Positions 12,822-48,655 of a stretch of 64,000 nt of DNA are shown here, piece after piece; positions within the stretch are counted from its first letter, which is position 1, and each line of letters starts with the position of its first letter. The notes under the pieces were generated by a model that saw only the letters and a list, made by a program, of their open reading frames with translations, did no database searches and was not told the DNA's origin. Origin of the DNA: Sphingomonas sp. J315 (lineage in GTDB: Bacteria; Pseudomonadota; Alphaproteobacteria; Sphingomonadales; Sphingomonadaceae); the NCBI RefSeq assembly GCF_024666595.1, contig NZ_CP088296.1:496001-560000 (forward strand), given 5' to 3'. The position numbers were made by a program, and so were the translations under genes.

Positions 12822-12901
12822 ACCCGAAACATTGACGGCGCGGGACCCGCTTGTCGAGTCCACGCGCCGTCACAATACCGTAAAACCGAAAAACCGACCG
12901 A

Positions 12902-13559
12902 TCAGCTCTTGAACAGCGTATCCCGGTCCAGCTCGACCCCGGGCGTGGCGTCGCGCGACGCCGCCTCGCGCTCGGCGCGCAGCTGTTCCAGCAACGCCTC
13001 GCGATCGCCCTCCAGCCTGGTGTCGACCGGGGCCTCGATCCCCGCCGCCTTCGCCGCCTTGGCCACCGCCGAATCCAGCTCGCGCTGGCTGGTCAGCCCC
13101 AGCGTCACCGGATCCTTGGGGGGTGATGTTGGAGATGTTCCAATGGGTGCGGTCGCGGATCGCGGCGATCGTCGTGCGCGTGGTGCCGATCAGCTTGCCG
13201 ATCGCGCCGTCGCTGATTTCCGGATGGTTGCGGATGATCCATGCGATGCCGTCGGGCTTGTCGGCGCGCTTGGACACCGGCGTGTAGCGCGGACCCTTGG
13301 TACGGCGAATCTGGTCGGGGCCCTTCATCATCTTCAGACGATAATCGGGGTCTGCCTGACCCTTTTCGATCTCTTCCAGCGCCAGTTCGTGCGCGCGGAC
13401 GGGATCGCGACCCGTCAGCTTGGTCGTGGCGGTGTCGTCGGCGATCGCCTGCACCTCCAGGATGTGCAGCCCGCAGAACTCGGCAATCTGCTCAAAGCTG
13501 AGCGCGGTGTTGTCGACCAGCCAGGAAGCGGTCGCATGCGGCATGAGCGGCTGAGCCAC
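12902..13559 (-). CDS. trcR: cell-cycle transcriptional regulator TrcR (DUF1013); frame broken once
   Basis: 218 residues after removing one base from the six-G run at 13118-13123. The N terminus (MAQPLMPHATASWLVDNTAL) and the central NHPEISDGAIGKLIGTTRTT helix-turn-helix are hallmarks of the alphaproteobacterial DUF1013 family, annotated as cell-cycle regulator TrcR. The C-terminal part (TLGLTSQRELDSAVAKAAKA) continues in another frame. Because the family is highly conserved, I consider the break a base-call error rather than gene loss. Confidence 0.85.
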
Positions 13560-13751: not shown

Positions 13752-14030
13752 ATGAAAAAGGCCCTTCTTCCGCTCGCCGCCGTCGCCGCGCTTGGCCTCG
13801 CCGCGTGCAGCGACAAGGCGCAGAACGAGACTGCCGAAGCCGCCGAGGCGATCGGCGCGGACGCCAATGCGACGATGAGCGAAGCCGCCGCCGATGTCGA
13901 GGCCGCAACCGACAGTGCGCTGGATACGGCCGAAAACGCCGCCGACCGTGCAGGCGCGGCGATCGGCGAGGGCGCGGACCGGGTCGGCAATGCTGCCGAT
14001 GCCGCCGAAGACGAACTCGACAAGAACTGA
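13752..14030 (+). CDS. small helical lipoprotein
   Basis: 92 residues. Starts MKKALLPLAAVAALGLAACS, a lipoprotein signal with lipobox LAAC, followed by an Ala/Asp/Glu-rich sequence with heptad-like repeats (AADVEAATDSALDTAENAAD) that should form a long amphipathic helix. The ribosome-binding site GAGAGGAAAT is directly upstream. Similar small Ala-rich lipoproteins are abundant stress-response products in sphingomonads, which fits a possible EcfG promoter 39 bases upstream. Outer-membrane or periplasmic location inferred. Confidence 0.75.
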   Translation: MKKALLPLAAVAALGLAACSDKAQNETAEAAEAIGADANATMSEAAADVEAATDSALDTAENAADRAGAAIGEGADRVGNAADAAEDELDKN

Positions 14031-14303: not shown

Positions 14304-15128
14304 ATGGATCATGTCGCCCAGTATCGGACAAACGGCTATGCCATTGTCCGCGGCGTCTTTTCACCCGATGAGGTGGCACGGATCGGTGCCGCGATCGACG
14401 CCGTCCATGCCGAGGGTGTCGCACATGGCCGCAGCTTCCGGCACGGCAACCTGTTCTACAATATCGCACCCGATGCCGACGGCGATCCGCTGGTGCGGAT
14501 GGTGCAATGGCCGTCCTACCATAATGCGGTGCTCGATTCCGTCCGGCTCGATCCGCGCTGGGTCGCATTGCTCGGGCCGCTGATCGGCGGCGATCTCAAA
14601 CAGATCATCAACCAGCTTCACTGGAAGGCACCGGGGTCGCGCGGCGACTTCGCCTGGCATCAGGACTCGCGCTTCCGCAAACCTGACGCCGCCTATCGCA
14701 ACCTCGGCGATTCCTACATCCAGACCGGCCTTGCGATCGATCCGCACACCCGCGACAGCGGCGCAATGCGGATGATTCCGAACAGCCACCGCGCCGGGCC
14801 GCTCGATCTCGACACCGATATCGAAGTGCTGGGCAACGAAATGACCGACCATGCGCTGCGCGACGCGGGCATCGATCCCGCCAGCGTCGTCGACCTCGAA
14901 CTCGCGCCCGGCGACATCGCGATGTGGAGCCCCTATCTGGTCCACGGATCGGGCCGCAACACCGCCGACCACCAGCGTCGCTTCTACATCAACGGCTATG
15001 TCCGCGCGGAGGACTGCGATCGCGGCGAATGGGCGTTCCGCGACGGTCGCCCTGTCCCGCTTGGCCCCGAACCCGCTTTGGTCCATTACGAAGCCCTGCA
15101 CGAAAAGCCCGAACCCCATTATGTCTGA
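14304..15128 (+). CDS. phytanoyl-CoA dioxygenase (PhyH)-family Fe(II)/2-oxoglutarate oxygenase
   Basis: 274 residues, no signal peptide, cytosolic. Double-stranded beta-helix oxygenase: the iron triad is visible as His119-x-Asp121 (AWHQDSRF) and His214 (YLVHGSGRN), and the 2-oxoglutarate-binding Arg lies in HQRRFYINGY. Predicted to hydroxylate a small acid using O2 and 2-oxoglutarate. It opens the long plus-strand locus: the LysR gene starts nine bases after its stop. The downstream genes handle D-amino-acid and gamma-glutamyl compounds, so the substrate may be an amino acid or its derivative; this is inference. Confidence 0.85.
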   Translation: MDHVAQYRTNGYAIVRGVFSPDEVARIGAAIDAVHAEGVAHGRSFRHGNLFYNIAPDADGDPLVRMVQWPSYHNAVLDSVRLDPRWVALLGPLIGGDLKQIINQLHWKAPGSRGDFAWHQDSRFRKPDAAYRNLGDSYIQTGLAIDPHTRDSGAMRMIPNSHRAGPLDLDTDIEVLGNEMTDHALRDAGIDPASVVDLELAPGDIAMWSPYLVHGSGRNTADHQRRFYINGYVRAEDCDRGEWAFRDGRPVPLGPEPALVHYEALHEKPEPHYV

Positions 15129-15137
15129 CCCTGCCTG

Positions 15138-16040
15138 ATGCGCCTGCGCCAGCTCGAAATCGTCCACGCCGTCTACCAGCACGGCTCGATCAGTGCCGCC
15201 GCGCGCGCACTCGGCGTCTCACAGCCTTCGGTGTCAAAGACCCTGCATCATGCCGAGGACAATCTGGGCTTCCGCCTGTTTCAGCTGTCGCGCGGTCGCC
15301 TGATCCCCACTGACGAGGCGCATGCGCTGATGCGTGAGGCGGGCGACCTGTTCGATCGGCTCGGCACGCTGCAGATCACTGCGCGCAACCTGTCGCATTC
15401 GGGCGGCGGACATATCCGGCTCGGCATCGTCCCCAGTCTCGCGCTCGACATGGTGCCCCAGGCAATGGCGCTGTTCCGGCGCGACTGGCCGCGTGTCACG
15501 TTCGAGGTGCACACGCACCACCATGACGATCTGCTGCGCTCGCTGATCGAGCGTGAGCTGGATCTCGCCATCGCCTACACTCCGCCGCCCCATCCCCGGC
15601 TGGCGCGAGAGGTGATGGCAGAGGGCGAACTGGTGGTGCAGTATCCGGATGGCATGTTCCCCGATCCGGGCGCGCGTTTCCCGCTCGAACAACTCGCCGA
15701 CCGCGACGTCATCGGCGTCGCCGCCGCCGGCCCGATCGGCGCGGTACTGACCGAAGCGGCGCGCGCGCGCGGCATCACGTTCCGCGAAACCGTGTCGGTC
15801 CAGACCTTCTTCATCGCCGCCCGCCTCGCCCAGCTTGAACGCGGGGTCACCGTGATCGACGAATTTACTGCACGAGCCTGGCGCGCGCCGGGCTTCACCT
15901 GGCGACCGACCAGCCCGCCGCTGCGGTTCACCATTTCCTGGGTGACGCTGGAGGAGCGCCAGCCGTCGCGCGCCGCCCGCGCTTTCCTGCGCACCTTCGA
16001 ACAGGTTCTCGAGGATAATCGCGCGAAAGCCATAACCTAA
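15138..16040 (+). CDS. LysR-family transcriptional regulator
   Basis: 300 residues. N-terminal winged HTH (MRLRQLEIVHAVYQHGSISA, then SQPSVSKTLHHAEDNLGFRL) and a periplasmic-binding-protein-like effector domain (HIRLGIVPSLALDMVPQAMA). Nine bases after the PhyH gene and followed by the catabolic operon. The 142-base gap to the next gene holds a perfect inverted repeat with an ATT-N11-AAT core (16111-16133), its probable binding site. Most likely the local activator, responding to a pathway intermediate. Confidence 0.9.
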   Translation: MRLRQLEIVHAVYQHGSISAAARALGVSQPSVSKTLHHAEDNLGFRLFQLSRGRLIPTDEAHALMREAGDLFDRLGTLQITARNLSHSGGGHIRLGIVPSLALDMVPQAMALFRRDWPRVTFEVHTHHHDDLLRSLIERELDLAIAYTPPPHPRLAREVMAEGELVVQYPDGMFPDPGARFPLEQLADRDVIGVAAAGPIGAVLTEAARARGITFRETVSVQTFFIAARLAQLERGVTVIDEFTARAWRAPGFTWRPTSPPLRFTISWVTLEERQPSRAARAFLRTFEQVLEDNRAKAIT

Positions 16041-16110
16041 ATCTATACCTATCGCAGCGATTGCGCGGTTTTCCGCGGCGGGGCGCACTTTAATGTCGCA
16101 TCTGGGAACG

Positions 16111-16133
16111 CGATTGGAATGTCGATCCAATCG
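16111..16133. promoter_or_regulatory. inverted repeat, probable LysR-regulator operator
   Basis: CGATTGGA, seven bases, TCCAATCG: a perfect eight-base inverted repeat in the only long gap of the locus, 72 to 50 bases before the flavoprotein start. It contains the T-N11-A pattern typical of LysR-type binding sites. Confidence 0.6.
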
Positions 16134-16182
16134 TATCCAGGGGGAGATGCACGCTGTTCGACCGCAACACATGGCTGGCGGC

Positions 16183-17400
16183 ATGACCGACCCACGTGAG
16201 GTGATCGTGCTGGGCGCGGGGGTGGTCGGCATGGCCACGGCGCTGACGCTTGCCGAACGCGGCCACCGCGTCACGGTGATCGATAGTGCCAAGGGACCGG
16301 GCCTCGGCACCTCCTTCGCGAACGGCGCGCAGCTCAGCTATGGCTATACCGATGCGCTCGCGAGCCCCGCCACGCTGGCACAGATACCGCGAGTGCTGCT
16401 CGGTCTCGATCGCGCGCTGCGCTTCCATCTGCGGCTCGATCCGGACTTCATCGCGTGGGGCCTTGCCTTCCTGCGCAACGGCACCGCCGCGCGCTTCCGC
16501 CGCAACACCCTTGCCGGGCTCGACCTTGCTGCCCGGTCGCGTGCGGCACTGGCGGGGCTTGCCGCGCGCCACCGGCTCGACTTCGGTCACGGCGCGCCGG
16601 GCAAGATCCATCTCTACCGCAGCGAAGCGTCCTTCGCGGGGGCGCAGGAAATGGCCGCGTTCAAGGCAGCGCACGGCATCGACCAGACGATCCTGGACCC
16701 CGATGCTGCCGTCGCCGCCGAGCCGATGCTCGCGCCGGTGCGCGATTCCATCGTCGGCGCGCTGCTGACCCGTGGCGAGGAGGTCGGCGACCCCCATCGC
16801 TTCTGCGTCAGCGCGCATGAAGCGCTTCTGCGCGCGGGCGGCAGCTCGATGATGGGCACTGGCATCGACCGGATCATCGCCAATGGCTCCGGTCCTGCGC
16901 TGATCACCAGCGACGGAACCCGCGTCGGTGCCGATCGCATCATCCTCGCCGCGGGTACCGGCTCCGCGCGGCTCGCGCGCCAACTTGGCGTGCGCCTGCC
17001 GATTCAGCCGATGAAGGGCTATTCGATCACCCTTGCGCCCGGCCCCGCCGCGCCGAGCATCAGCATCACCGATGTCGCCAACCGCGTGGTCTTCGCCCGT
17101 ATCGGCAACCGTATGCGGATCGCCGGCCTGGCCGAGCTCGGCGAGCGGGACACGCGGGTCGAACCGGCACGGCTGCGCGTGCTGGTCGACAGCGCCCGCG
17201 CGGCCTTGCCTCAGGCGGCGGACTATGAACAAATCGAATCGAGCTGGGCCGGCCTGCGACCGATGACCCCCAATTCGCTTCCGATCACCCGGACCATCGC
17301 GCCGGGCGTGATCGCTGCGACAGGGCATGGCGCTCTGGGCTGGACCTACGCCGCAGGCAGCGCGGAGCGCGTCGCGGAGATCATCGAAGAGAGGGGCTGA
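16183..17400 (+). CDS. D-amino-acid dehydrogenase (DadA)-like FAD oxidoreductase
   Basis: 405 residues. The dinucleotide-binding motif VIVLGAGVVGMATALTLAER is at the N terminus, and the C terminus shows the second FAD contact region (GVIAATGHGALGWTYAAGSA) of the DAO/DadA superfamily. It also has the DadA-like GLRPMTPNSLPIT stretch. Predicted to oxidise a D-amino acid to the 2-oxo acid at the inner face of the membrane, passing electrons to the respiratory chain. The start is uncertain: MTDPREV (16183) fits the family best; in-frame ATGs lie at 16093, 16147 and 16171. Neighbours support a role in using D-amino acids released by the downstream hydrolases. Confidence 0.82.
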   Translation: MTDPREVIVLGAGVVGMATALTLAERGHRVTVIDSAKGPGLGTSFANGAQLSYGYTDALASPATLAQIPRVLLGLDRALRFHLRLDPDFIAWGLAFLRNGTAARFRRNTLAGLDLAARSRAALAGLAARHRLDFGHGAPGKIHLYRSEASFAGAQEMAAFKAAHGIDQTILDPDAAVAAEPMLAPVRDSIVGALLTRGEEVGDPHRFCVSAHEALLRAGGSSMMGTGIDRIIANGSGPALITSDGTRVGADRIILAAGTGSARLARQLGVRLPIQPMKGYSITLAPGPAAPSISITDVANRVVFARIGNRMRIAGLAELGERDTRVEPARLRVLVDSARAALPQAADYEQIESSWAGLRPMTPNSLPITRTIAPGVIAATGHGALGWTYAAGSAERVAEIIEERG

Positions 17401-17453
17401 AGGCGCGTCAGACGCCAGGGCACGAAAGAACAAAACTCAGGGAAGGTGTAATC

Positions 17454-20400
17454 ATGAAAACCAGTATCCGGATCGCAAGTCTGTTGGGGAGCATCTCGCT
17501 TCTCGCCTCCGCCACCGCCGCCATGGCGCAGGACGCGCCGCAGACCGCCGCGGATGTGCAGGACGAGGCCGCCGAGGAAGTCGTGGTCATCGGGTCGCAG
17601 ATCAAGGGCGCCGACGTCGCCGGATCGCTGCCGGTCACCGTGCTGAACGAGGATGACATCGCCGCCACCGCCGCCACCAGCGGCGACGAGCTGTTCCGTT
17701 CGATCCCGCAGGCAGGCGACGTCGCCTTCAACGAGAGCCGAGACGCGGGCGGCATCAACGACGCGCGCGGCGACACCGCCTCGATCAACCTGCGCGCGCT
17801 CGGCACCGGCAACACGCTGGTGCTGCTCAACGGCCGCCGCATGGTCCTCCACCCCGGCACGCAGAGCGAAAACCTCGTTCCGGTGCAGAGCGTCAACACC
17901 AACACCATTCCCGTCCTGGGCGTCCGCCGCGTCGAGGTGCTGCTCGACGGTGCCGCCGCGATCTACGGATCGGATGCGGTCGCAGGCGTCATCAACACCG
18001 TGCTCAAGGACAATTTCCGCGGGCTGCGCACCACCGCAGAGATCGGCTTTACCGAGGATTCGGGCCAGGTCGAGGCCGAGTTCGCGTTCGAGGCAGGCCA
18101 CCGCTTCAACGGCGGCAAGTCGAACATCTCGGTATTCGGATCGTACAACCATCGCGACCCGCTCTATGCGCGCGACCGCCGCAACTCGCGCTCGGCCGAC
18201 ATGCGCCCGCTGGTCGCGGGCACGCCCTTTGCTGGCGATTCCGATTTCGACAACACATCGGTCGACAGCATCTGGGGCGAATTCCAGCGGCTGACCAACA
18301 GCTACGTCGCATCGACCACCGCAGCCCAGGTCAATGGCGTGACGCTGACCAGCAGCGGCATTTTCCATATTCAGCCCAACACCAATGAAGGCTGCATCGC
18401 CGCGACGCCCTATGCCGGGACGTGCTGGGACAACAGCTCGCTGTCGACCGCCTCGACCGACAACAACCTGAAATATGACGTCAACGATGTCCGCACGCTT
18501 CAGGGGCGCAACGACCGCATCAACCTGTTCGGCTTCCTCAATCACGAATTCGACAGCGGGCTCGAATTCTTCGCGGAAGCGGGCTGGTATCGCGCCGATT
18601 TCCAGTCGCAGCGCGAACAGGATACCGCGCTCGCCAGCCAGCGGCTGATCATCCCGGCGAACGGCTATTACAACCCGTTCGGCCCGACCGGCAGCGCGTT
18701 CCGCATCCCCGGCCTGACCGGCGTCGCCACCACCGGCGTGCCGATCGAGCTGATCGACTATCGCCCGGTCGATGCCGGTCCGCTGGTGGTCAGCGTCCGC
18801 AACGACACGACCCGCTTCCTCGCCGGCTTCCGCGGCGAAGTGCTCGGCTTCGACTTCGACAGCGCCGCGCTCTATTCGCGCGCCCGCACCTCCGACAGCA
18901 TGCGCACCGTCAGCCTGACCAAGTTCCAGGAAGCACTCAGCCGCACTGACGCCAGTGCCTATAATCCGTTCAACGGCGGCGACCCGCTCAACCCGGGCCG
19001 CCTGGATTCGTCACCCAATTCACAGGCGGTGATCGACAGCTTCATGGTGAACATCGGTCGCGTCAGCACGACCGAGCTGGCGATGGCGGATTTCAAGATC
19101 AGCAAGAACGACCTGTTCACGCTGCCCGGCGGCCGTGTCGGCATGGCGGCGGGTATCGAGTTCCGCCACGAAACCTTCGCCGACGACCGCGACGACCGGC
19201 TGGACGGCACGATCGTGTTCACCGCCCTGGACGGCAGCTCGAACGGCAGCGACACGATGGGCGCCAGCCCGACCCCGGACAGCAGCGGATCTCGCGACAC
19301 CGTGTCGGGCTATCTCGAATTCGCTGTGCCGTTGGTCGCGCCGGACATGAACGTGCCGCTGATCCGCTCGCTCGATCTCCAGCTCGCTGGCCGCGTCGAA
19401 TCCTATCAGGGGTTCAGCACGGTCGCGAAGCCAAAGGTCGCGGCGTCCTGGTATCCCTTCGCCAATCTCCAGCTGCGCGGCAGCTGGTCGCAGGGCTTCC
19501 GCGCGCCGAACCTGCCCCAGCTGTTCGAAAACGGCATCCAGCGGTCGAACACCCGCACCGACTGGGTGAAGTGCGAAGCCGACTTCCGTGCCGGTCGCAT
19601 CACCAATTTCGACGCCTGCACGCGCAGCCAGGGTGTGGTCAGCAACCGGTCGGGCAGCCAGTCGCTCACGCCGGAGGAATCGGACAACCTCTCGGTCGGT
19701 GGCACGTTCCAGCTGAACATGGGCAAGGCGGGTCGCCTCACCTTCACCGCTGACTATTGGGAAATCCGTCAACAGAATGTGATCGGCCTGTTCGGCGACG
19801 GCAATGCGCTGATCCTCGACTATCTGCTGCGCCTTCAGGGATCGTCCAACCCCAATGTCCAGCGCGCCGCCCCGACGCCGCAGGAAGTTCTGGACTTTGC
19901 CGGCACCGGCATCGCCCCCGTGGGTCGCGTGATCCAGGTCATCGACAATTACACCAACCTCTCGCCGCGCGCGGTGCGGGGCTATGACCTCGGCGTCTAT
20001 TATCAGGTCAAGGACACCGGCATCGGCGATTTCAGCGTCCGGGTGAACGCTGCGCGCCTGCTCGAATTCTACCAGACGCCCAGCCCGGCAGCCCAGGCAC
20101 TGATCGACGCACAGGCGGCCGGTACGATCGATGACACCATCGCGATCGCGGGCGCGCAGGATATCGTCGAACAGAATGGCCGCCCGAAATGGCGCGCCTC
20201 GGCCAGCGTGACCTGGCGTCACAACGGCTTCGGGCTCGGCTATTATGGCGGCTATGTCGGCGAGGTCACCGACACCTCGGCGTCGCTTCCGGATGGCACC
20301 CGCTTCCGCGTCGACGATTACATGACCCACAGCCTCTACGCACAGTATGAGGTCGATGGCGGGCCGATGGACAGCCTGCGCCTGCGCGTCGGCGCACGCA

Positions 20401-20510
20401 ATTTGTTCAACCAGCTCGCCCCGATTGCCGACAATTCCAACGGCTATATGGGCGAACTCTACAGCAACCGCGGCCGCCAGATCTATTTCTCGGTCAGCAA
20501 GCGGTTCTGA
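17454..20510 (+). CDS. TonB-dependent outer-membrane receptor of the catabolic locus
   Basis: 1018 residues. Signal peptide (ISLLASATAAMAQDA), a TonB-box-like EEVVVIGSQIKG, a plug domain (INLRALGTGNTLVLLNGRRM; AAAIYGSDAVAGVINTVLKD), then a 22-strand barrel ending in GRQIYFSVSKRF with a terminal Phe. The first gene in a tightly coupled series: its TGA overlaps the ATG of the deacylase gene by one base. Given its partners it likely imports a peptide, gamma-glutamyl or N-acyl-amino-acid compound across the outer membrane. The ligand cannot be read from sequence. Confidence 0.9.
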   Translation: MKTSIRIASLLGSISLLASATAAMAQDAPQTAADVQDEAAEEVVVIGSQIKGADVAGSLPVTVLNEDDIAATAATSGDELFRSIPQAGDVAFNESRDAGGINDARGDTASINLRALGTGNTLVLLNGRRMVLHPGTQSENLVPVQSVNTNTIPVLGVRRVEVLLDGAAAIYGSDAVAGVINTVLKDNFRGLRTTAEIGFTEDSGQVEAEFAFEAGHRFNGGKSNISVFGSYNHRDPLYARDRRNSRSADMRPLVAGTPFAGDSDFDNTSVDSIWGEFQRLTNSYVASTTAAQVNGVTLTSSGIFHIQPNTNEGCIAATPYAGTCWDNSSLSTASTDNNLKYDVNDVRTLQGRNDRINLFGFLNHEFDSGLEFFAEAGWYRADFQSQREQDTALASQRLIIPANGYYNPFGPTGSAFRIPGLTGVATTGVPIELIDYRPVDAGPLVVSVRNDTTRFLAGFRGEVLGFDFDSAALYSRARTSDSMRTVSLTKFQEALSRTDASAYNPFNGGDPLNPGRLDSSPNSQAVIDSFMVNIGRVSTTELAMADFKISKNDLFTLPGGRVGMAAGIEFRHETFADDRDDRLDGTIVFTALDGSSNGSDTMGASPTPDSSGSRDTVSGYLEFAVPLVAPDMNVPLIRSLDLQLAGRVESYQGFSTVAKPKVAASWYPFANLQLRGSWSQGFRAPNLPQLFENGIQRSNTRTDWVKCEADFRAGRITNFDACTRSQGVVSNRSGSQSLTPEESDNLSVGGTFQLNMGKAGRLTFTADYWEIRQQNVIGLFGDGNALILDYLLRLQGSSNPNVQRAAPTPQEVLDFAGTGIAPVGRVIQVIDNYTNLSPRAVRGYDLGVYYQVKDTGIGDFSVRVNAARLLEFYQTPSPAAQALIDAQAAGTIDDTIAIAGAQDIVEQNGRPKWRASASVTWRHNGFGLGYYGGYVGEVTDTSASLPDGTRFRVDDYMTHSLYAQYEVDGGPMDSLRLRVGARNLFNQLAPIADNSNGYMGELYSNRGRQIYFSVSKRF

Positions 20511-22105
20511 TGCGTCGCGCCGTCCGCGTTCTCGCGGCACCGCTCCTGCTCCTGCCCCTCGGGGCGGGGCAGGACCGGGTTCCCGCCCCCCGCACGATCG
20601 ACCTCGTCATCATCAATGGCCAGGTCATCGACGGCACCGGCACCCCGGCGCGGGTGGCGGAAGTGGGCGTGGACGGCGACCGCATCCTCTATGTCGGCCA
20701 GCGTCCGCGCGGCATCACCGCGCGGCGCACTCTCGATGCGAAGGGCCTCACGGTCGCCCCGGGCTTCATCGACCCGCACACGCATAGCGGCCCCGACGCG
20801 ACGTCCCCCGACGCGGCGAAGCGCCAGCTCGCCAACCATCTGCTGCAAGGCGTCACCAGTATCGCGATCGGCAATGATGGCGGCGGCGCCAGCGACATCG
20901 CCGGCCTGTTCGCGCGCCTCTCCGCCAACCCGACCGGCCCGAACGTCGCCAGCTTCACCGGCTATGGCACGATCCGAATTCAAGTCGTCGGCCACCGCGT
21001 CAGCCCGCCGAGCGGCACCGACGGAGGCGAGGCCTATAAGATGGAGCGTCTTGTCGAGCGTGCGATGTGCGATGGCGCACTCGGGCTTTCGGCCGGCCTG
21101 TTCTACGCCCCCCAGATGTTCGCGACCGCGAATGAAGTGGCGAACCTCGCCCGCATCGCGGGCAGGTATGACGGCATCTACGAAACCCACCTCCGCGACG
21201 AGGGCAGCAACTCGATCGGCCTGTCCGCTGCGATCGACGAAGCGATCCGCATCGCCCGTCTGGGGCATCTCCCGCTCCACATCGCGCATATCAAGGCGCT
21301 CGGCGTCGATGCACAGGGCACTGCGCCGCGCATTATCGAACAGATCCGCACCGCCCGCCTGTCCGGCGTGATGATCACCGCCGACCAATATCCGTGGGAA
21401 GCCTCCAGCACCTCGCTCGCCGCCGCCCTCGTTCCGCCGGATGCGCAAGAGGGCGGGAGCAAGGCGATGGTGACGCGGCTCCGCGACATCGGCGCGCAGT
21501 TGCGGAGCGAAATGACCGAACGCCTGCGCATCCGCGGCGGTGCGAACGCCATCCTCCTCGTCAGCGGCCCGCACAAGGGGCAGCGCCTCGACGCCCTCGC
21601 CGCCGCGTGGAAACTCGACCCGCTCGACGCCGCCGCACGCATCCTGATCGCCGATCCCGGCACCAGCATCGCCAGCTTCAACATGGTCCAGTCCGATATC
21701 GACGCCTTTGCGCGTCAGAATTGGGTCGTCACCTCCTCCGACGCCACCAACGGCCATCCGCGCCGCATGGGCAGCTTCGCGCGCGGCTGGCGGATGTTCG
21801 TGCACGAGAAGCAGCTGATGAGCCCTGAGCGCTTCGTTCAGCGCTCCTCGGCCCAGACTGCCCAAATCCTCGGCCTGCCCGATCGCGGCATCCTCGCGCC
21901 GGGCAAGTTCGCCGACATCGCGATCCTGGACCCAAACACCTACGCCGAACGCGCCACATACGACCGGCCCGACGAACCCAGCACCGGCGTCCGCTACGTC
22001 CTAGTCAACGGCCGCCTCGCAGTGGACAAGGGCAAGCTCACCGGCACGCTCGCCGGCCGCCCGCTGCCCAAGCCGCGCCAACCCGAATGGAACTGCCCCG
22101 CATGA
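20510..22105 (+). CDS. exported N-acyl-D-amino-acid deacylase (D-aminoacylase)-like amidohydrolase
   Basis: 531 residues with a signal peptide (VLAAPLLLLPLGAGQ). Amidohydrolase-superfamily TIM barrel: small beta-sandwich start TIDLVIINGQVIDGTGTPAR, metal-binding HxH in APGFIDPHTHSG (about residue 94), later metal ligands ETHLRDEG and HIAHIKALG, and the catalytic Asp region TSSDATNGHPRRMGSFARGW. This matches the D-aminoacylase/N-acyl-D-glutamate deacylase family, which releases a D-amino acid from its N-acyl form. Translationally coupled to both neighbours (TGATG at its start, ATGA at its end). Periplasmic action is inferred from the signal peptide. Confidence 0.85.
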   Translation: MRRAVRVLAAPLLLLPLGAGQDRVPAPRTIDLVIINGQVIDGTGTPARVAEVGVDGDRILYVGQRPRGITARRTLDAKGLTVAPGFIDPHTHSGPDATSPDAAKRQLANHLLQGVTSIAIGNDGGGASDIAGLFARLSANPTGPNVASFTGYGTIRIQVVGHRVSPPSGTDGGEAYKMERLVERAMCDGALGLSAGLFYAPQMFATANEVANLARIAGRYDGIYETHLRDEGSNSIGLSAAIDEAIRIARLGHLPLHIAHIKALGVDAQGTAPRIIEQIRTARLSGVMITADQYPWEASSTSLAAALVPPDAQEGGSKAMVTRLRDIGAQLRSEMTERLRIRGGANAILLVSGPHKGQRLDALAAAWKLDPLDAAARILIADPGTSIASFNMVQSDIDAFARQNWVVTSSDATNGHPRRMGSFARGWRMFVHEKQLMSPERFVQRSSAQTAQILGLPDRGILAPGKFADIAILDPNTYAERATYDRPDEPSTGVRYVLVNGRLAVDKGKLTGTLAGRPLPKPRQPEWNCPA

Positions 22106-23412
22106 CCGAAACCACTGCCCCGGACTCCACCGAGACGCCCGAACGACGCGGCCCGATCAAGCGCGCCTTCGCCTGGTGGTTCAGCGTTGCCTTGTGGAAG
22201 CGCATCCTCGCCGCGCTCGTTCTGGGCGCTGCGGCGGGCCTTGTCTGGGGTGAGGGTGCGACGTCGATCGGCTGGATCGGAACGCTGTTTGTCCGCCTGA
22301 TCCGGATGCTCGTGGTGCCGCTCGTCTTTCTCACCATCGCCTCGGGCGTTGCCGCGCTCGCCGATCCCAAAAGGCTCGGCAGCATCGGCGTCAAGACGCT
22401 GGCAATGTATGTCTTCACCACCGCGCTCGCCGTCACCACCGGTCTGATCGTCGCGACGCTGATCGCCCCGGGCCTCGGCGCAAGCTTCGCGGGGGCGGTG
22501 CCCAAGGCGATGGGCACGCCGCCCGACACCGCGCAGATGTTCATGGAGATCATCCCCGACAATCCCATCGGCGCGATGGCCGAAGGCAAGACGCTCGCAG
22601 TAATCTTCTTCGCGATCCTCGTCGGCGCGGGCGTCATCGCGGCTGGCAAGGGCGCGGAGCCGGTGCGCCAGTTCCTCAGCGCCGGGTCGGAGGTGATGCT
22701 CAAGATCGTCGGCTTCGTGATGGAAACCGCCCCGTTCGGCGTCTTCGCGCTGATCGCCGTGGTGATGGGCACCACCGGCCCGTCCAGCTTCCTCGCAGTG
22801 CTCAAGCTGGGTCTCTGCGTCGTGATCGGCTCGGCGATCGTCACCCTGCTGATCCACGGGCTGATCGTCGTGCGGCTGATGGCATGGCTCTCGCCACTTC
22901 CCTTCTTCCGCGGCATTGCCGATGCGATCATGGTCGGCTTCTCGACCTCGTCCAGCTCTGCCACCCTCCCCGTCGCGATCCGCGTGGCCGAGCGCAACCT
23001 CGGCGTCTCGCCCCCGGTCGCCTCGACCGTCCTGCCCTTGGGTGCGACGATCGGCATGGATGGCGCGGCGATGTATGTCGCGATGCTCACCCTCTTCTCG
23101 GCGCAGGCATTCGGCGTCGATCTGTCGATGGCCGACTATCTGGTGATCGCCGCCACCACGACCATCGTCGCGATGGGCGTCGCGCCGGTCCCGTCGGGAT
23201 CGCTGTTCGTCCTCGCCGCAGTGCTGCACGCCATCGGCATCACGCCGGAGCAGACCGCGATCGTCGTTGGCTTCATCCTCCCGTTCGACCGCATTCTCGA
23301 CATGACCCGCACCGTCCCCAACGTCACGTCGGACCTCGCCATCGCCACCGCCGTCGCGCGCTGGGAGGGAGAGATGGACGTCGCGGTGTACAATTCCGCC
23401 GACGATGTTTGA
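22102..23412 (+). CDS. dicarboxylate/amino acid:cation symporter (DAACS family)
   Basis: 436 residues, inner membrane, eight helices and two re-entrant hairpins. Family motifs are visible: the Ser-rich hairpin GFSTSSSSATLPVAIR and the TM7 cation/substrate motif PLGATIGMDGAAMY (family NMDGT). It takes up glutamate, aspartate or C4-dicarboxylates with Na+ or H+. Its ATG overlaps the stop of the deacylase gene (ATGA). The next gene is 46 bases away, behind a hairpin. In this locus it would carry the acidic (D-)amino acid released in the periplasm into the cell. Confidence 0.92.
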   Translation: MTETTAPDSTETPERRGPIKRAFAWWFSVALWKRILAALVLGAAAGLVWGEGATSIGWIGTLFVRLIRMLVVPLVFLTIASGVAALADPKRLGSIGVKTLAMYVFTTALAVTTGLIVATLIAPGLGASFAGAVPKAMGTPPDTAQMFMEIIPDNPIGAMAEGKTLAVIFFAILVGAGVIAAGKGAEPVRQFLSAGSEVMLKIVGFVMETAPFGVFALIAVVMGTTGPSSFLAVLKLGLCVVIGSAIVTLLIHGLIVVRLMAWLSPLPFFRGIADAIMVGFSTSSSSATLPVAIRVAERNLGVSPPVASTVLPLGATIGMDGAAMYVAMLTLFSAQAFGVDLSMADYLVIAATTTIVAMGVAPVPSGSLFVLAAVLHAIGITPEQTAIVVGFILPFDRILDMTRTVPNVTSDLAIATAVARWEGEMDVAVYNSADDV

Positions 23413-23421
23413 GGCACCAAA

Positions 23422-23444
23422 ATCCTCCCCGGAACGGGGAGGAT
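23422..23444. repeat. intra-operon hairpin, ATCCTCCCC type
   Basis: ATCCTCCCC, spacer GGAAC, GGGGAGGAT: a perfect nine-base stem between the symporter and the first gamma-glutamyltransferase. The same hairpin unit recurs at 27751 and in 42738-42872. It may modulate relative expression within the operon. Confidence 0.65.
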
Positions 23445-23458
23445 CTGAAAGGTATCCC

Positions 23459-25179
23459 ATGTTCCTGCGCACCCTTACCCTCGGCCTCTCGGCCTTCGCC
23501 CTCGCTCTCCCCACGCCCACGCTGGCGCAAAGCCGCCACCTCCTCGAATATCCCTCGATCCACTCCCCCGTCGTAGGCACGCGCGGAATGGTGGTCAGCC
23601 AGAACGAGATGGCGAGCGCGGTCGGGGCTCAGATCATGCGCGACGGCGGCAATGCCATCGACGCTGCGGTCGCGGTCGCCTTCGCCCTCGCCGTCACCCT
23701 GCCGCGCGCGGGCAATGTCGGCGGCGATGGCTTCATGACGGTCTATGACGCCAAGGCGAAACAGGTCCGCGTCATCGACTTTCGCGGCATCGCCCCGCGC
23801 GCGGCCACCGCGGCAATGTTCGTCGACAACAAGGGCAAGGAACGCGGCGTCGCTTCCTATGGCTATCTCGCCCCTTCGGTGCCCGGAAGCGTCGCGGGGC
23901 TGGAGCACGCTCACAAGAAATGGGGCAAGCTCCCCTGGGCCAAGGTCGTCGAACCCGCGCTCCGTCTCGCCCGCGATGGCGTCAAGCTCACCGCCGACGA
24001 AGCCTTCGTGTTTGGCTGGGGCCGCGAGCGGCTCGGCAACAGTGTCTCGGGCAAATCGGTCTTCTACAAGCCCGACGGAAGTCTCTACGCCAAGGACGAG
24101 GTGCTGAAACAGCCCGACCTCGCCTGGACGCTGGGCGAAATCCAGAAGGGCGGCGCCAAGGCCTTTTACACCGGGGAGATCGCCCGCCGGATCGAAGCGG
24201 ACATGAAGGCCAATGGCGGCCTCATCACCATGGCCGACCTCGCCGCCTACAAGGCCGTCGAGCGCGACCCGCTGGTCGGCACCTATCGCGGGCACACCGT
24301 ATATACCCCTCCACCGGCCAGCGCGGGCGGGGCGACATTGCTCAACATGCTCAACATCCTTGAGCATTTCGACATGAAGGCGATGGGTCAGGGCAGTGCC
24401 GCCTCGCTCCACATCCTCGCGGAGACGATGAAGCTTGCCTATGCCGACCGCTTCCGCGTGCTCGGCGACCCCGCCTTCGTCACCGCCCCGGTCAAGGGCT
24501 TCGTGTCCAAGGCCTATGCCGCCGAACGGGTGAAGCTGATCGCGCCCGACAAGGTGATCCCCGGTGCCGATGCCCCCGCATGGCGACCCGCTCAAATATG
24601 AAAGCCCCTCGACCACCCATTTCTCGGTCGCGGATGCCGACGGCAACGCCGTATCGGTCACCACCACGCTCGGCTCCGATTTCGGCTCCGGGGTGATGAT
24701 TGCGAAGACCGGCATCCTGCTCAACAACCAGATGAACAATTTCAGCCATGAACAGGCATGGGAGGCACAGCGCAGCGGCACCCCCGCCCCCGCTCAACGC
24801 GATGGCCCCCGGCAAGCGGATGCTGTCCACCCAGATGCCGACGATCGTCTTCAAGGGCGACAAGCCCTGGCTCGTCACCGGCACGCCGGGCGGCAGCACG
24901 ATCCCGACCACGGTGGTTCAGATCATCGTCAACGCGATCGACTATGGCCTCAACGTCGACGAGGCGACCCACCGTCCGCGCATCTATCAGGGAACCACCG
25001 CGTCGCTGCGCGTTGAACCCGGGTTCAACCCCGATACGGTTGCGGCGCTCAAGGCAAAGGGGCATCGCATCACTTCCGACGAAACCATGGGCAGCGCCCA
25101 GTCGATCATGATTACCGACTCTCTCTTCCTCGGCGGCGCCGATCCCCGCCGTCCCGGTGCCAAGGCAATCGAACCATGA
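23459..25179 (+). CDS. gamma-glutamyltransferase 1, exported; frame broken twice
   Basis: 572 residues after correcting two one-base insertions in C runs (24573-24577, and 24781-24791). The signal peptide is FALALPTPTLA. It has the large-subunit start MVVSQNEMASAVGAQIMRDG, then the autocatalytic cleavage site with the nucleophilic Thr in PSTTHFSVADADGNAVSVTT, and the small-subunit glycine motif GTPGGSTIPTTV. Family enzymes hydrolyse or transfer the gamma-glutamyl group of glutathione and gamma-glutamyl peptides in the periplasm. The 3' end overlaps gamma-glutamyltransferase 2 by four bases (ATGA). Confidence 0.85.
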
Positions 25180-26898
25180 ACTCCCTGTTGAAGCCGCTTA
25201 CCCTCACCCTCGCCGTCGCCGCGCTAGCCGCCTGCGCGCCGCGCGCGGGAACCGATACCAGTGCCACTGCGACCGCCCCCGCCGCGTCTGCGGAGCGTCA
25301 GGCCTTCGTCGCCGCCGCCCACCCGCTCGCGGTCGAAGCTGGCCTCAACGTGCTGCGCAAGGGCGGCAGCGCGGTCGACGCCGCGGTGGCGGTCCAGGCG
25401 ATGCTCAGCCTGGTCGAACCACAGAGCAGCGGCCTTGGCGGCGGTGCGTTCATGGTCCGCTACGACGCCAAGACCAAGGCCGTCACCGTCTATGACGGCC
25501 GCGAAACCGCCCCGGCGGGCGCAACCCCCGACATGCTGATGGGCCCGGACGGCAAGCCGCTAGGCTTCCGCACCGCCGTCCTGTCGGGCCGCGCGACCGG
25601 CGTCCCCGGCGTCGTCCGCATGATGGCGCTGGCGCAGGAGAGGCACGGCAAGCTCAAATGGCGCGATCTGTTCGCCGATAGCGAGCGCACCGCCGCGAAC
25701 GGCTTCACCGTCACCGGTCGCCTCGGCCGCTTCATCAACTCGGCCGCGCCTCAGGCCAGCACCCCCCGACTCGATCGCCTATTTCCGCAACGCGGATGGG
25801 ACGAAGACCAAGGCCGGCGACACGCTGCGCAACCCCGCCTATGCCGCCTTCCTCCGCCGTCTCGCTGCCCAAGGCCCGGACGCGATGTACCGCGGCGAGA
25901 CTGCCCGCCGCATCGTCGCCAGGGTGCGCGAAGGCGACTATGCCGGCAGCATGACCGAGGCGGACCTTGCCGCCTACAAGCCGGTCGTGCGCGAAGGCCT
26001 GTGCAACCCCTATCGCACCTATATCCTCTGCGCCCCGCCCCCGCCGTCATCGGGCGTCGGGCTGCTCCAGTTGATGGCGATGATCGAGCGCACCGACATC
26101 GGGGCACGCGGTCCCAACGACCCCGTCGCCTGGGTCAAATATGCCGAGGCCAGCCGCGTCATGTACGCCGACCGCGACGCCTATGTCGGCGATGTCGCGA
26201 CCGTGCCGGTCAAGGGCATGCTCGACCCCGCCTATGTCGCCAGCCGCGCCGCGCTGATCGGCGATCGCGCCGGCCCCGCGCCCCAGCCCGGTACGCCCCC
26301 CGGCGCGGTCACCGCGCGGATCGATGCCACCAACGAAGTCGCCGGCACCTCGCACTTCATCGTCATCGACGGCGACGGCAACGCGGTGTCGATGACCACC
26401 ACGGTCGAGAGCCTGTTCGGCACCGGCCGAATGGTCGATGGCTTCTTCCTCAACAACGAGATGACCGATTTCTCCTTCGTGCCCAGCGGCCCGAATGCGA
26501 TCGCACCGGGCAAGCGTCCGCGCTCATCGATGGTCCCGACGGTCATCCTCCACCCCGACCGCAGCCTCGCCGGCGCGATCGGCTCGCCCGGCGGCAATGC
26601 GATCCTGGGTTACGTGTCCAAGGCTCTGGTGGGCATGATCGACTGGAAGCTCCCCGTCGCCGACGCCATCGCGCTCCCCAACCTCGTCGCGCGCGGCACC
26701 AGCTTCAACGGCGAAGCCGACAAGTTCGCCCCCGCCATGCTCGCCGCAATGGCCGAGCGCGGCGTCACCGTCCGCGCCGGATCGGGCGAGGATTCCGGCC
26801 TCCACGGCGTGATGATCCGCGACGGCAAGTTCGACGGCGGTGCCGACCCGCGCCGGGATGGCGTGGCGAAAACCATCACCCTGCCAGCGAGGAAATAG
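25176..26898 (+). CDS. gamma-glutamyltransferase 2, lipoprotein; frame broken once
   Basis: 573 residues after deleting one C from the six-C run at 25762-25767. Begins with a lipoprotein signal (LTLAVAALAACAPRAG, Cys20), so unlike its upstream neighbour it should be membrane-anchored. The processing site keeps the catalytic Thr as GTSHFIVIDGDGNAVSMTTT (TSH in place of the common TTH), and SPGGNAILGYV is the small-subunit glycine loop. The sequence is only distantly related to gamma-glutamyltransferase 1, so this is not a recent tandem duplication. Coupled upstream by an ATGA overlap and followed after one base by the hydrolase gene. Confidence 0.85.
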
Positions 26899-26899
26899 G

Positions 26900-27748
26900 A
26901 TGCGCCACCTACTCGCCCCCATCGCCCTGATCATCGCCGCGCCCGTCGCCGCCCAGCAGGTACAGGTCGAGGAGGTCCAGTTCCTCAGCCGCGACGGCAA
27001 GACGCAGGTAAAGGGCTATCTGTTCAAACCAACCGACGCCCCCGCCAGGGCACCCGCAGTGGTGATGATGCACGGCCGCGGCGGCGCCTATTCGACCCTC
27101 GCCAAGGGCAAGTACGACGCCTCTACCCTCGCCTCGCGGCACAAGGCATGGGGCAAGCTCCTCGCCGAAAATGGTTATGTCGCGCTGATGGTCGATGATT
27201 TCGGCGCGGTCGGCCATCCCACCGGTTTCGCCGCCGGGACCTATGCCGATCGCCCGCCCGAGGTGGACGAGGTGAATTTCCGCCCGCTCCACGCCTATGG
27301 CGCGCTCCGCTACCTCCAGTCGCGCCCCGATGTCACCGGCAACCGCGTCGCCCTGCTCGGCTGGTCGAACGGCGGCAGTGCCACGCTCGCCGCAATGGCC
27401 GACGACAAGCCAGGCGACATGCGCAAGATCGGCTTCGCCGCCGGCGTCGCGCTCTACCCCGGCTGCGGCCTCAAGAAGCGTTTCGACAAGGACGGCTACA
27501 AACCCTACCACCCCGTCCGCGTCTTCATGGGCACCGCCGACGAAGAGGTCTCGCCCAAGCTCTGCGAAACCTTCGTCGCGCGCAGCAAGGCCAAGGGCCA
27601 CGACATCGCGCTCCGCATGTTCGAAGGCGCGACCCACAGCTACGACACCCCCACCAAATCGCGCCAGTCGGTCGCGGCGAACGTGACGGCCAAGGCCGCG
27701 ACGGAGGCCGATATCCTCGCCTTCCTGGCGGAGCGGCTAAAGAAGTAA
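26900..27748 (+). CDS. exported alpha/beta hydrolase of the dienelactone-hydrolase type
   Basis: 282 residues. Signal peptide MRHLLAPIALIIAAPVAAQQ. The serine-hydrolase triad is readable: Ser in GWSNGGSATLAA, Asp in MGTADEEVSPK, His in EGATHSYDTP; the oxyanion-hole region is VMMHGRGGAYS. Last gene of the catabolic unit, one base after gamma-glutamyltransferase 2 (TAGGATG). It probably cleaves an ester or amide in the same substrate in the periplasm. A hairpin-rich repeat follows and probably ends the transcript. Confidence 0.8.
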   Translation: MRHLLAPIALIIAAPVAAQQVQVEEVQFLSRDGKTQVKGYLFKPTDAPARAPAVVMMHGRGGAYSTLAKGKYDASTLASRHKAWGKLLAENGYVALMVDDFGAVGHPTGFAAGTYADRPPEVDEVNFRPLHAYGALRYLQSRPDVTGNRVALLGWSNGGSATLAAMADDKPGDMRKIGFAAGVALYPGCGLKKRFDKDGYKPYHPVRVFMGTADEEVSPKLCETFVARSKAKGHDIALRMFEGATHSYDTPTKSRQSVAANVTAKAATEADILAFLAERLKK

Positions 27749-27933: not shown

Positions 27934-29430
27934 ATGACTGCCCGCATCGACATGGGACTCGACAGCGGCGGCAACCCGGTTGCCGTCGATCTGGAGGAGT
28001 TGCTCGCCACCCGCCTGCTCGTTCAGGGCAATTCGGGCTCGGGCAAGTCGCACCTTTTGCGCCGCCTGCTTGAGGGCAGCGCGGGTTACGTCCAGCAGGT
28101 CGTGGTCGACCCCGAGGGCGATTTCGTCAGCCTGTCCGACGCCTTCGGCCATATCGCGGTCGACGCCGCCGAATATAGCCTCACCGAACTCGCCCGCCTC
28201 GCGCTGCGCGTCCGCGAGCACCGCGCCAGCGTCGTCCTCAATCTCGAAGGGCTCGAGATCGACGGCCAGATGCGCGCCGCCGCCGCCTTCCTCTCCGCGC
28301 TGTTCGACGCCCCGCGGGAACATTGGTACCCCGTCCTCACCGTGGTCGACGAAGCCCAGCTCTTCGCCCCCGCCGCCGCCGGCGAAGTGACCGAGGAAGC
28401 CCGCCGCACTTCGCTCGCCGCGATGACCAACCTCATGTGCCGCGGCCGCAAGCGTGGCCTCGCCGGCGTCATCGCCACCCAGCGCCTCGCCAAGCTCGCC
28501 AAGAATGTCGCCGCCGAAGCCTCGAACTTCCTGATGGGCCGCACCTTTCTCGACATCGACATGGCCCGCGCCGCCGACCTGCTCGGCATGGACCGCCGTC
28601 AGGCCGACACGATCCGGGACCTTGCGCGCGGCGAGTTCCTCGCGCTCGGCCCGGCGATCACCCGCCGCCCGATCAGCGTCCGCATCGGCGCGGTGCAGAC
28701 CGGGTCGAAAGCGGTCAGCCCCAAGCTCACCCCGCTGCCCACCGCCCCGACCGGCGAGATGCGCGACATGCTCTTCGCCCCGCCGACTGAGGACGAGCTA
28801 CCACCCCCGCCGCCCCCGCCCCGGTGCCGATGGCCGATCTGATGCGCGCCGTCGCCACCCCCGCGCCCGCACCTGTCCCCGACATGCCGGTGCTTGAGGA
28901 AGGCGAACAGGAAGAGATCCGCCGCGCGATCCTCGCCGAAATCGGGTCAGAGGACAGCCGCGCCCCGCTCGCCACGATCTTTCAGGACTATGGCGTGCGC
29001 TGCAAAATGCGCGGCGTCGATCCGGGCATGGACTTGCCCGCCTTCCGCAGTGCGCTCGCGCTCGCCCGCGCCGGGATCACCGACCGCACCGGCTGGGACG
29101 ACGCGCTCACCCTCGCCGCGTCGCTGCCAGAAGAGATGCTCGCCCCCCTTCCTCGGCATCGCCAAGGCTGCGCGCGCGGGCGAGCCCTGCCCGTCGGACG
29201 CGCGCATCGCCGCGCTCTACGGCACCAGCTCGATGGGCCGCGCCAAGCGCATGATGGCGCATATCGAGGAAAAGGGCCTGATCGTCGCGCGCACCGACCT
29301 GTCGGGCAAGCGTAGCGTCAGCCTCCCCCATCTCGGCTGGACCACCGCGCCCTCCTGGCCCGACCCGGCCAAGCCCCCGCCCGTCGGCCGTACCGCAGTA
29401 CGCGCCGCCGAACGCGCGAAACTAATCTAG
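27934..29430 (+). CDS. HerA/DUF87-like ATPase; frame broken twice
   Basis: 498 residues after inserting one C in the run area 28804-28817 and removing one from 29143-29148. Walker A is GNSGSGKSHLLRR (about residue 33), Walker B is VLTVVDEAQLFAP, with a following ATQRLAKL sensor-like motif, as in HerA/FtsK-type hexameric ATPases of bacteria. After a Pro-rich linker the C-terminal 150 residues (EEIRRAILAEIGSEDSRAPL; YGTSSMGRAKRMMAHIEEKG) look like winged-helix DNA-binding segments. Probably a DNA-processing or DNA-binding ATPase; no nuclease partner is adjacent. Confidence 0.78.

Positions 29431-45985: not shown

Positions 45986-48651
<2,666 letters not shown>

Positions 48652-48655
<4 letters not shown>

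Follow-up and report, generated by a model that had tools for sequence, protein, structure and literature searches.

A nine-gene cluster of Sphingomonas proposed to serve the catabolism of peptide-bound D-glutamate

The window analyzed here is a stretch of 64,000 nucleotides from the single-contig, 3.93 Mb genome of Sphingomonas sp. J315 (NZ_CP088296.1, positions 496,001 to 560,000), and the studied part, window positions 14304-27748, carries nine genes, all on the + strand. In order, they encode a PhyH-family oxygenase, a LysR-type regulator, a DadA-like flavoprotein, a TonB-dependent receptor, an exported amidohydrolase, a DAACS symporter, two proteins of the gamma-glutamyltransferase (GGT) family, named GGT1 and GGT2, and an exported hydrolase. 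The named records most similar to the locus are from Sphingomonas, and the open reading frame (ORF) coordinates and Pfam matches bear out the original prediction of nine co-directional genes of these families. The PhyH protein (14304..15128; PF05721, 93 bits) is of the Fe/2-oxoglutarate type and is followed by the presumed cluster regulator (15138..16040; HTH_1 and LysR_substrate, the substrate domain at 114 bits). The DadA-like FAD D-amino-acid dehydrogenase (16180..17400; PF01266, DAO, 208 bits), in which no signal peptide was seen by eye, is preceded on the + strand by the palindrome ATTGGA-N7-TCCAAT (16113..16131), a candidate LysR site from a sequence pattern search with one match in the window and none in 100 shuffles. 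Next come the receptor of 1018 aa (17454..20510; PF00593 barrel and PF07715 plug), the amidohydrolase of the D-aminoacylase / N-acyl-D-glutamate deacylase family (20510..22105; Amidohydro_3, 67 bits) and the symporter (22102..23412; SDF, PF00375, 365 bits), a proposed D-glutamate importer. GGT1 (23459..25179), which is exported, and GGT2 (25176..26898), which has a lipobox-like start by eye, match Pfam GGT in each of the pieces into which frameshifts split them in this assembly. The last gene (26900..27748; PF01738, DLH, 47 bits) encodes an exported alpha/beta hydrolase of the dienelactone-hydrolase family.

The stop and start junctions predicted at 20508-20512, 22102, 25176 and 26899 are correct by the ORF coordinates: base 20510 is common to the receptor stop and the amidohydrolase ATG, ATGA junctions occur at 22102 and 25176, and GGT2 ends a single base (26899) ahead of the ATG of the final hydrolase gene. 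The accompanying claim that the genes from receptor through hydrolase are coupled by overlaps holds at these junctions and fails between the symporter and GGT1, which are separated by 46 bases if GGT1 starts at 23459 and are thus not coupled by overlap in the window. These two ORFs do overlap in one related locus (L043; loci and genomes of the survey carry L and G numbers). The gap contains a palindrome (23423..23443) of a repeat family, a GC-rich palindromic repeat TCCTCCCC...GGGGAGG found at window positions 23423, 27752/27857 and 42740/42851, two of these places being inverted pairs about 105-111 bases apart, and the family resembles a small mobile repeat element. As further gaps lie between the LysR and DadA genes (about 130-140 bases) and between the DadA and TonB genes (53 bases), a single transcript from PhyH through the last hydrolase is not established.

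The nine-gene arrangement is more than chance adjacency, since the same genes are kept in the same order between TrcR and HerA in four relatives (L037, L038, L039 and L041), a recovery at the same site that answers the check for conserved synteny in sphingomonads proposed earlier. The arms of the candidate LysR palindrome are exact in L037 and L038, with a single base of one arm altered in L039 and L041. A small lipoprotein-like gene just upstream of the set, at window 13752-14030, is also kept in these four. Eight of the nine genes, without PhyH, occur at a different site in L043, and L040 and L042 retain the DadA, amidohydrolase, symporter and GGT2 genes, with LysR also present in L042. Three further loci (L134, L143, L144) have GGT1 beside DadA, LysR and TonB genes.

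The amidohydrolase is of an Asp-for-Cys subfamily within its family. Residues H90, H92, H227, H260 and D411 are invariant in 52/52 rows of the alignment, and this set (HxH, two further His and an Asp) we take to be the metal-site residues of the D-aminoacylase family. A fold comparison, made by VIA-align 2 over the best 1000 chains from Foldseek, confirms the D-aminoacylase / N-acyl-D-amino-acid deacylase family and, as it does not separate the family members, is silent on substrate. The window enzyme differs from the N-acyl-D-glutamate deacylase / D-aminoacylase structures 3gip and 1m7j, to which it aligns at about 30% identity, in two respects: Asp stands in place of the conserved Cys (the GNCG metal ligand) in all 52 rows, where the printed alignments of 3gip, 1m7j and 9g5m read Cys, and the loop of about 22 residues following this site is missing. 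Two distant paralogues in the same genome (L131 at about 2.10 Mb and L132 at about 3.31 Mb), both having DgcN- and DgcA-like genes no more than about 7 kb away, align Gly at the Cys/Asp place with Glu immediately before it.

The neighbors of this amidohydrolase in related genomes bear on its substrate. A DgcN-DgcA pathway of D-glutamate catabolism, which converts D-glutamate to N-acetyl-L-glutamate, was reportedly described by Yu et al. in 2023 and is treated in PMC10845958, PMC12363236 and PMC11747546. Neighbors were called at distances of up to 10 kb, from scores of at least 100 bits against a single reference protein per family, in 54 loci comprising 34, a further 17 after three repeats had been dropped (L071, L072 and L089, duplicates of L041, L040 and L053), and L131, L132 and L144; the window is not counted, nor is L133, whose amidohydrolase is cut at a contig end. 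All were found with the amidohydrolase as bait except L144, found via GGT1, and they are not independent, the L044 and L045 amidohydrolases being identical and L131 and L132 being the own-genome paralogues. DgcN or DgcA occurs in 18 loci, DadA in 28 and either in 45. The remaining nine are L048, L073, L074, L075, L080, L081, L084, L085 and L086, of which the genomes of L074, L075, L080 and L081 have both PBP4 and AmpG matches within 10 kb, those of L084 and L086 have PBP4 and that of L085 has AmpG. Across the whole set PBP4 is found in 12 loci, AmpG in 8, an M14 peptidase in 13, PhyH in 6, a GGT in 9 and the symporter in 29; the co-location controls cover DgcN, PBP4 and AmpG, so that the counts for the TonB receptor (42), the LysR family of the window (39) and the D-aminopeptidase/AmpH/PBP4B-like serine hydrolases (25), which are common genes, are uncontrolled. 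Each of the 54 loci carries at least one gene for DgcN/DgcA, DadA, a GGT, AmpG or a peptidase of the kinds counted above.

DadA thus alternates with DgcN/DgcA beside the amidohydrolase. On a tree of 55 amidohydrolases, in which the window enzyme falls with those of L037-L043 in a single, fully supported group, the DadA label switches 5 times and the DgcN/DgcA label 11 times (labels were assigned by hand, one per row, and L060 and L087 could carry others), and because of these changes the two routes look as if they replace each other. Against NCBIfam, DgcN and DgcA of L044 exceed their cut-offs (516.6 against 480 and 437.3 against 400), as do the PBP4 proteins of L133 and L075, and the AmpG-family proteins of the latter two, at 302 and 298 bits, fall below the cut-off of 350. 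One locus, L076, reads LysR-DgcN-DgcA-amidohydrolase-symporter-PhyH. In L133 and L075 an AmpG-family permease, a PBP4B-like hydrolase, PhyH, PBP4, a second amidohydrolase, the symporter and a D-Glu-type amidohydrolase lie in one run, which is likely a muropeptide scavenging locus.

These associations exceed expectation across the 61 genomes surveyed, with expected values that assume uniform placement in an average genome of 3.7 Mb. For at least 21 of 42 DgcN matches the amidohydrolase or a homologue is no more than 8 kb away, against 0.45 expected, and of the 21, 9 adjoin close family members and 12 adjoin more distant homologues (57 amidohydrolase rows among the matches listed, and 42 of 43 DgcN rows, the second piece of a split gene being dropped). 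Using 24 strong amidohydrolase rows and merging two pieces of one PBP4 gene, 13 of 20 PBP4 matches have a close family member no more than 10 kb away, against 0.13 expected, and 9 of 76 AmpG-family matches do so, against 0.26, these nine being from among 16 two-copy genomes. The amidohydrolase therefore clusters with PBP4 and AmpG-family genes in sister loci, and because the amidohydrolase elsewhere partners DgcN/DgcA, PBP4 and an AmpG-family permease, the substrate of the window cluster is narrowed to D-glutamate-containing peptides, with the gene content of the sister loci making the peptidoglycan stem peptide the simplest source.

PhyH likewise has a real association with the locus. Orthologues at 71% identity or more occur in 6 of 61 genomes, the own genome included, and in five of the six (G000, G015, G012, G027 and G032, the copy of the window among them) the gene and the amidohydrolase are at most about 6 kb apart; the sixth, G004, is the exception. 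The hydroxylation step that the original prediction assigned to PhyH is nonetheless speculative. As a methylphosphonate hydroxylase the protein scores 27 bits against a cut-off of 500 and this assignment was rejected. The linkage of PhyH lends some weight to a rather improbable alternative, in which the cluster scavenges a secondary metabolite containing an N-acyl-D-amino acid or D-isoglutamate, such as a peptide of cyanobacterial or non-ribosomal origin in which a D-isoglutamyl residue is N-acylated, and PhyH hydroxylates a product. An N-acylated, gamma-linked D-Glu would suit both the amidohydrolase and a GGT1 that does not require a free amino group, and PMC3400609 proposes that a TonB receptor adjoining a D-aminoacylase gene takes N-acyl-D-amino-acid derivatives as its substrates. 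Against such a metabolite, the PBP4, AmpG-family permease and PBP4B/AmpH-like hydrolase genes of the sister loci point to cell-wall peptides, and the occurrence of the locus across several sphingomonad genera suggests a common substrate.

The two GGT proteins differ from each other at the donor site. With residues numbered by E. coli GGT and counted along the light chain of the alignment, GGT1 retains Arg114, Thr391, Ser462 and the Gly pair and carries Gly411, Asn433 and Thr463. Among the matches listed (8000 scored), the N433/G411/T463 pattern is present in 120/120 GGT1 homologues, and Thr391 and Arg114, the latter of which we take to be the alpha-carboxylate binder, are kept in all 120 as well. 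Relative to the E. coli structures 2dbu and 2e0w, the GGT1 clade has Thr391, Arg114, Ser462 and the Gly pair in common and differs by N411G, D433N and S463T, whereas GGT2, read from the intact copy in L037, keeps Thr391, Arg114 and Asp433 and differs by Glu at 411. Asp433 is also kept by the third GGT of this genome, and the 17 GGTs at 41-47% identity (L094, L095, L100-L114) all have Asn411, Asp433 and Ser463. A third sphingomonad GGT type (L096-L099) has Tyr114, Ser411, Ser430 and Asn433, a donor site altered further.

The exchange at position 433 has been made by mutation in two characterized enzymes. According to PMC8062742, the E. coli D433N variant shows no transpeptidation, retains 82% of hydrolysis and gains glutaryl-7-ACA acylase activity, and in B. 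subtilis GGT the equivalent Asp445 is reported to contact the donor alpha-amino group, with D445N lowering activity by 90% and raising acylase activity 55-fold. By the same source, Asn also stands at position 433 in the class IV cephalosporin acylases, a branch of the GGT family whose genomic setting differs from that of GGT1; an acylase activity of GGT1 would be hypothetical. Because the residue binding the donor alpha-amino group is replaced by Asn, GGT1 is probably a hydrolase of N-blocked donors and not a transpeptidase, and the earlier description of both proteins as ordinary gamma-glutamyltransferases is not supported.

Two GGT-family proteins beside an acidic-amino-acid-type symporter could also mark a general gamma-glutamyl scavenger acting on glutathione or poly-gamma-glutamate, in which the GGTs are the main enzymes, the symporter takes up L- or D-glutamate, and side products are left to the amidohydrolase and DadA. 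The Asp433 of GGT2 fits this explanation, as does L141, where the cluster is DadA-TonB-GGT1-GGT2-hydrolase and the amidohydrolase and symporter were not found. It is nevertheless somewhat unlikely: the GGT1 clade is without the Asp needed to bind the alpha-amino group of the donor, neither DadA nor DgcN/DgcA is needed for L-Glu, and the amidohydrolase used as bait adjoins D-Glu and cell-wall genes in sister loci.

The DadA-like protein scores 340.9 bits against NF001933 (D-amino acid dehydrogenase, cut-off 383); glycine oxidase (100 bits against 251) and D-proline dehydrogenase (66 bits against 600) were rejected. The best PDB sequence match of the symporter is an aspartate transporter. Its TM8 Asp and Arg, presumably substrate binding-site residues in the DAACS family, are present in 29/31 rows with 2 gapped, DMTRT being aligned to DMART of 9bgz. 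The NMDGT motif, which we take to be part of the DAACS sodium site, reads GMDGA in 8 of the 31 rows (the window included), GKDGT in 10 and NMNGT in 11, with 2 gapped, and ion coupling of these symporters may differ judging from these variants. Growth of Raoultella on D-glutamate with raised dadA expression is reported in PMC6131576.

Taken together, we favor, with a probability of roughly 0.55, the reading that the cluster serves sphingomonad catabolism of peptide-bound D-glutamate, most likely from peptidoglycan stem peptides (L-Ala-gamma-D-Glu-diaminopimelate...). The TonB receptor would carry the peptide to the periplasm, where, as their residues suggest, the two GGTs would hydrolyze gamma-amides, GGT1 at D-glutamyl residues that are N-blocked and GGT2 at gamma-glutamyl residues with a free amino group, and the amidohydrolase, by its family, would strip the acyl or L-alanyl group off D-Glu. 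The symporter would then take up D-Glu and the DadA-like enzyme would convert it to 2-oxoglutarate and ammonia, with LysR controlling the cluster and PhyH and the last hydrolase as putative linked accessories. The earlier logic, in which a compound crosses the outer membrane, is stripped of gamma-glutamyl and N-acyl groups in the periplasm and yields an acidic amino acid that is taken up and oxidized in its D-form, survives by inference, narrowed to D-glutamate, and loses its premise of ordinary, intact GGTs. Several observations weigh against this reading: D-Ala is an alternative substrate for DadA, AmpG and PBP4 are absent from the window cluster (own-genome matches lie at 3.89 and 0.71 Mb, respectively), L141 is without a detected amidohydrolase and symporter, and L142 has GGT1 without any of the partners searched for. 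A more specific and rather unlikely version is that proteins of the GGT1 clade have a new activity, that of an N-acyl-(or L-alanyl-)gamma-D-glutamyl amidase cutting the D-Glu-diaminopimelate bond of free stem peptides, after which the Asp-bridged amidohydrolase would act as an L-Ala-D-Glu hydrolase.

Both GGT genes had been taken as intact, and each proves to be frameshifted in this assembly. GGT1 is spread over three frames (23459-24601, within 24564-25016, and 24748-25179) and GGT2 over two (from 25176, and 25885-26898). Such splits in both genes could mean that the locus is decaying, the frameshifts being genuine and the strain losing the pathway. The same assembly also splits TrcR (window 12870-13544, - strand), HerA (27934-29315, +) and, in three pieces, aconitase (45986-48655, +). 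The set's remaining seven genes have open frames, the related loci that were read have intact GGTs (GGT1 in 5/5 and GGT2 in 7/7), and the frame-shifting differences inside genes relative to three relatives mostly involve one base in a run of C or G. With TrcR, HerA and aconitase split, relatives' GGTs intact and the shifts mostly in C or G runs, consensus or sequencing error is likelier than real decay, which we judge decidedly unlikely.

Known from earlier work are the DgcN-DgcA pathway, GGT, D-aminoacylase and, from PMC3400609, a TonB receptor adjoining a D-aminoacylase gene. Amidohydrolases and symporters of the same families adjoin dgcN/dgcA in many sphingomonads and the presumed metabolite, D-Glu, is common to both settings, but none of the nine genes is DgcN or DgcA (DgcN-family genes elsewhere in the own genome fall below cut-off), and the window cluster instead has the DadA-like dehydrogenase together with GGT1, GGT2 and PhyH. 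Sister loci of the amidohydrolase-symporter pair carry the AmpG-family and PBP4 genes of peptidoglycan recycling; in the window cluster, which has neither, D-Glu would be catabolized and not reused. Among the titles and abstract openings listed from the openly licensed literature, none described the nine-gene set, in agreement with the original prediction, and none the clade of GGT1.

Organic matter in the form of D-glutamate in peptidoglycan debris is hard to use, and the cluster offers a concrete gene set for how one common group of soil and water bacteria may eat it. The data suggest that a sphingomonad clade named gamma-glutamyltransferase does not perform the reaction for which it is named, and that loci for D-Glu and the cell wall are marked by an Asp-for-Cys branch within the D-aminoacylase family. 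If GGT1 were an amidase acting ahead of an L-Ala-D-Glu hydrolase, sphingomonads would possess a pathway in the periplasm by which cell-wall peptides are consumed for their D-Glu instead of being recycled.

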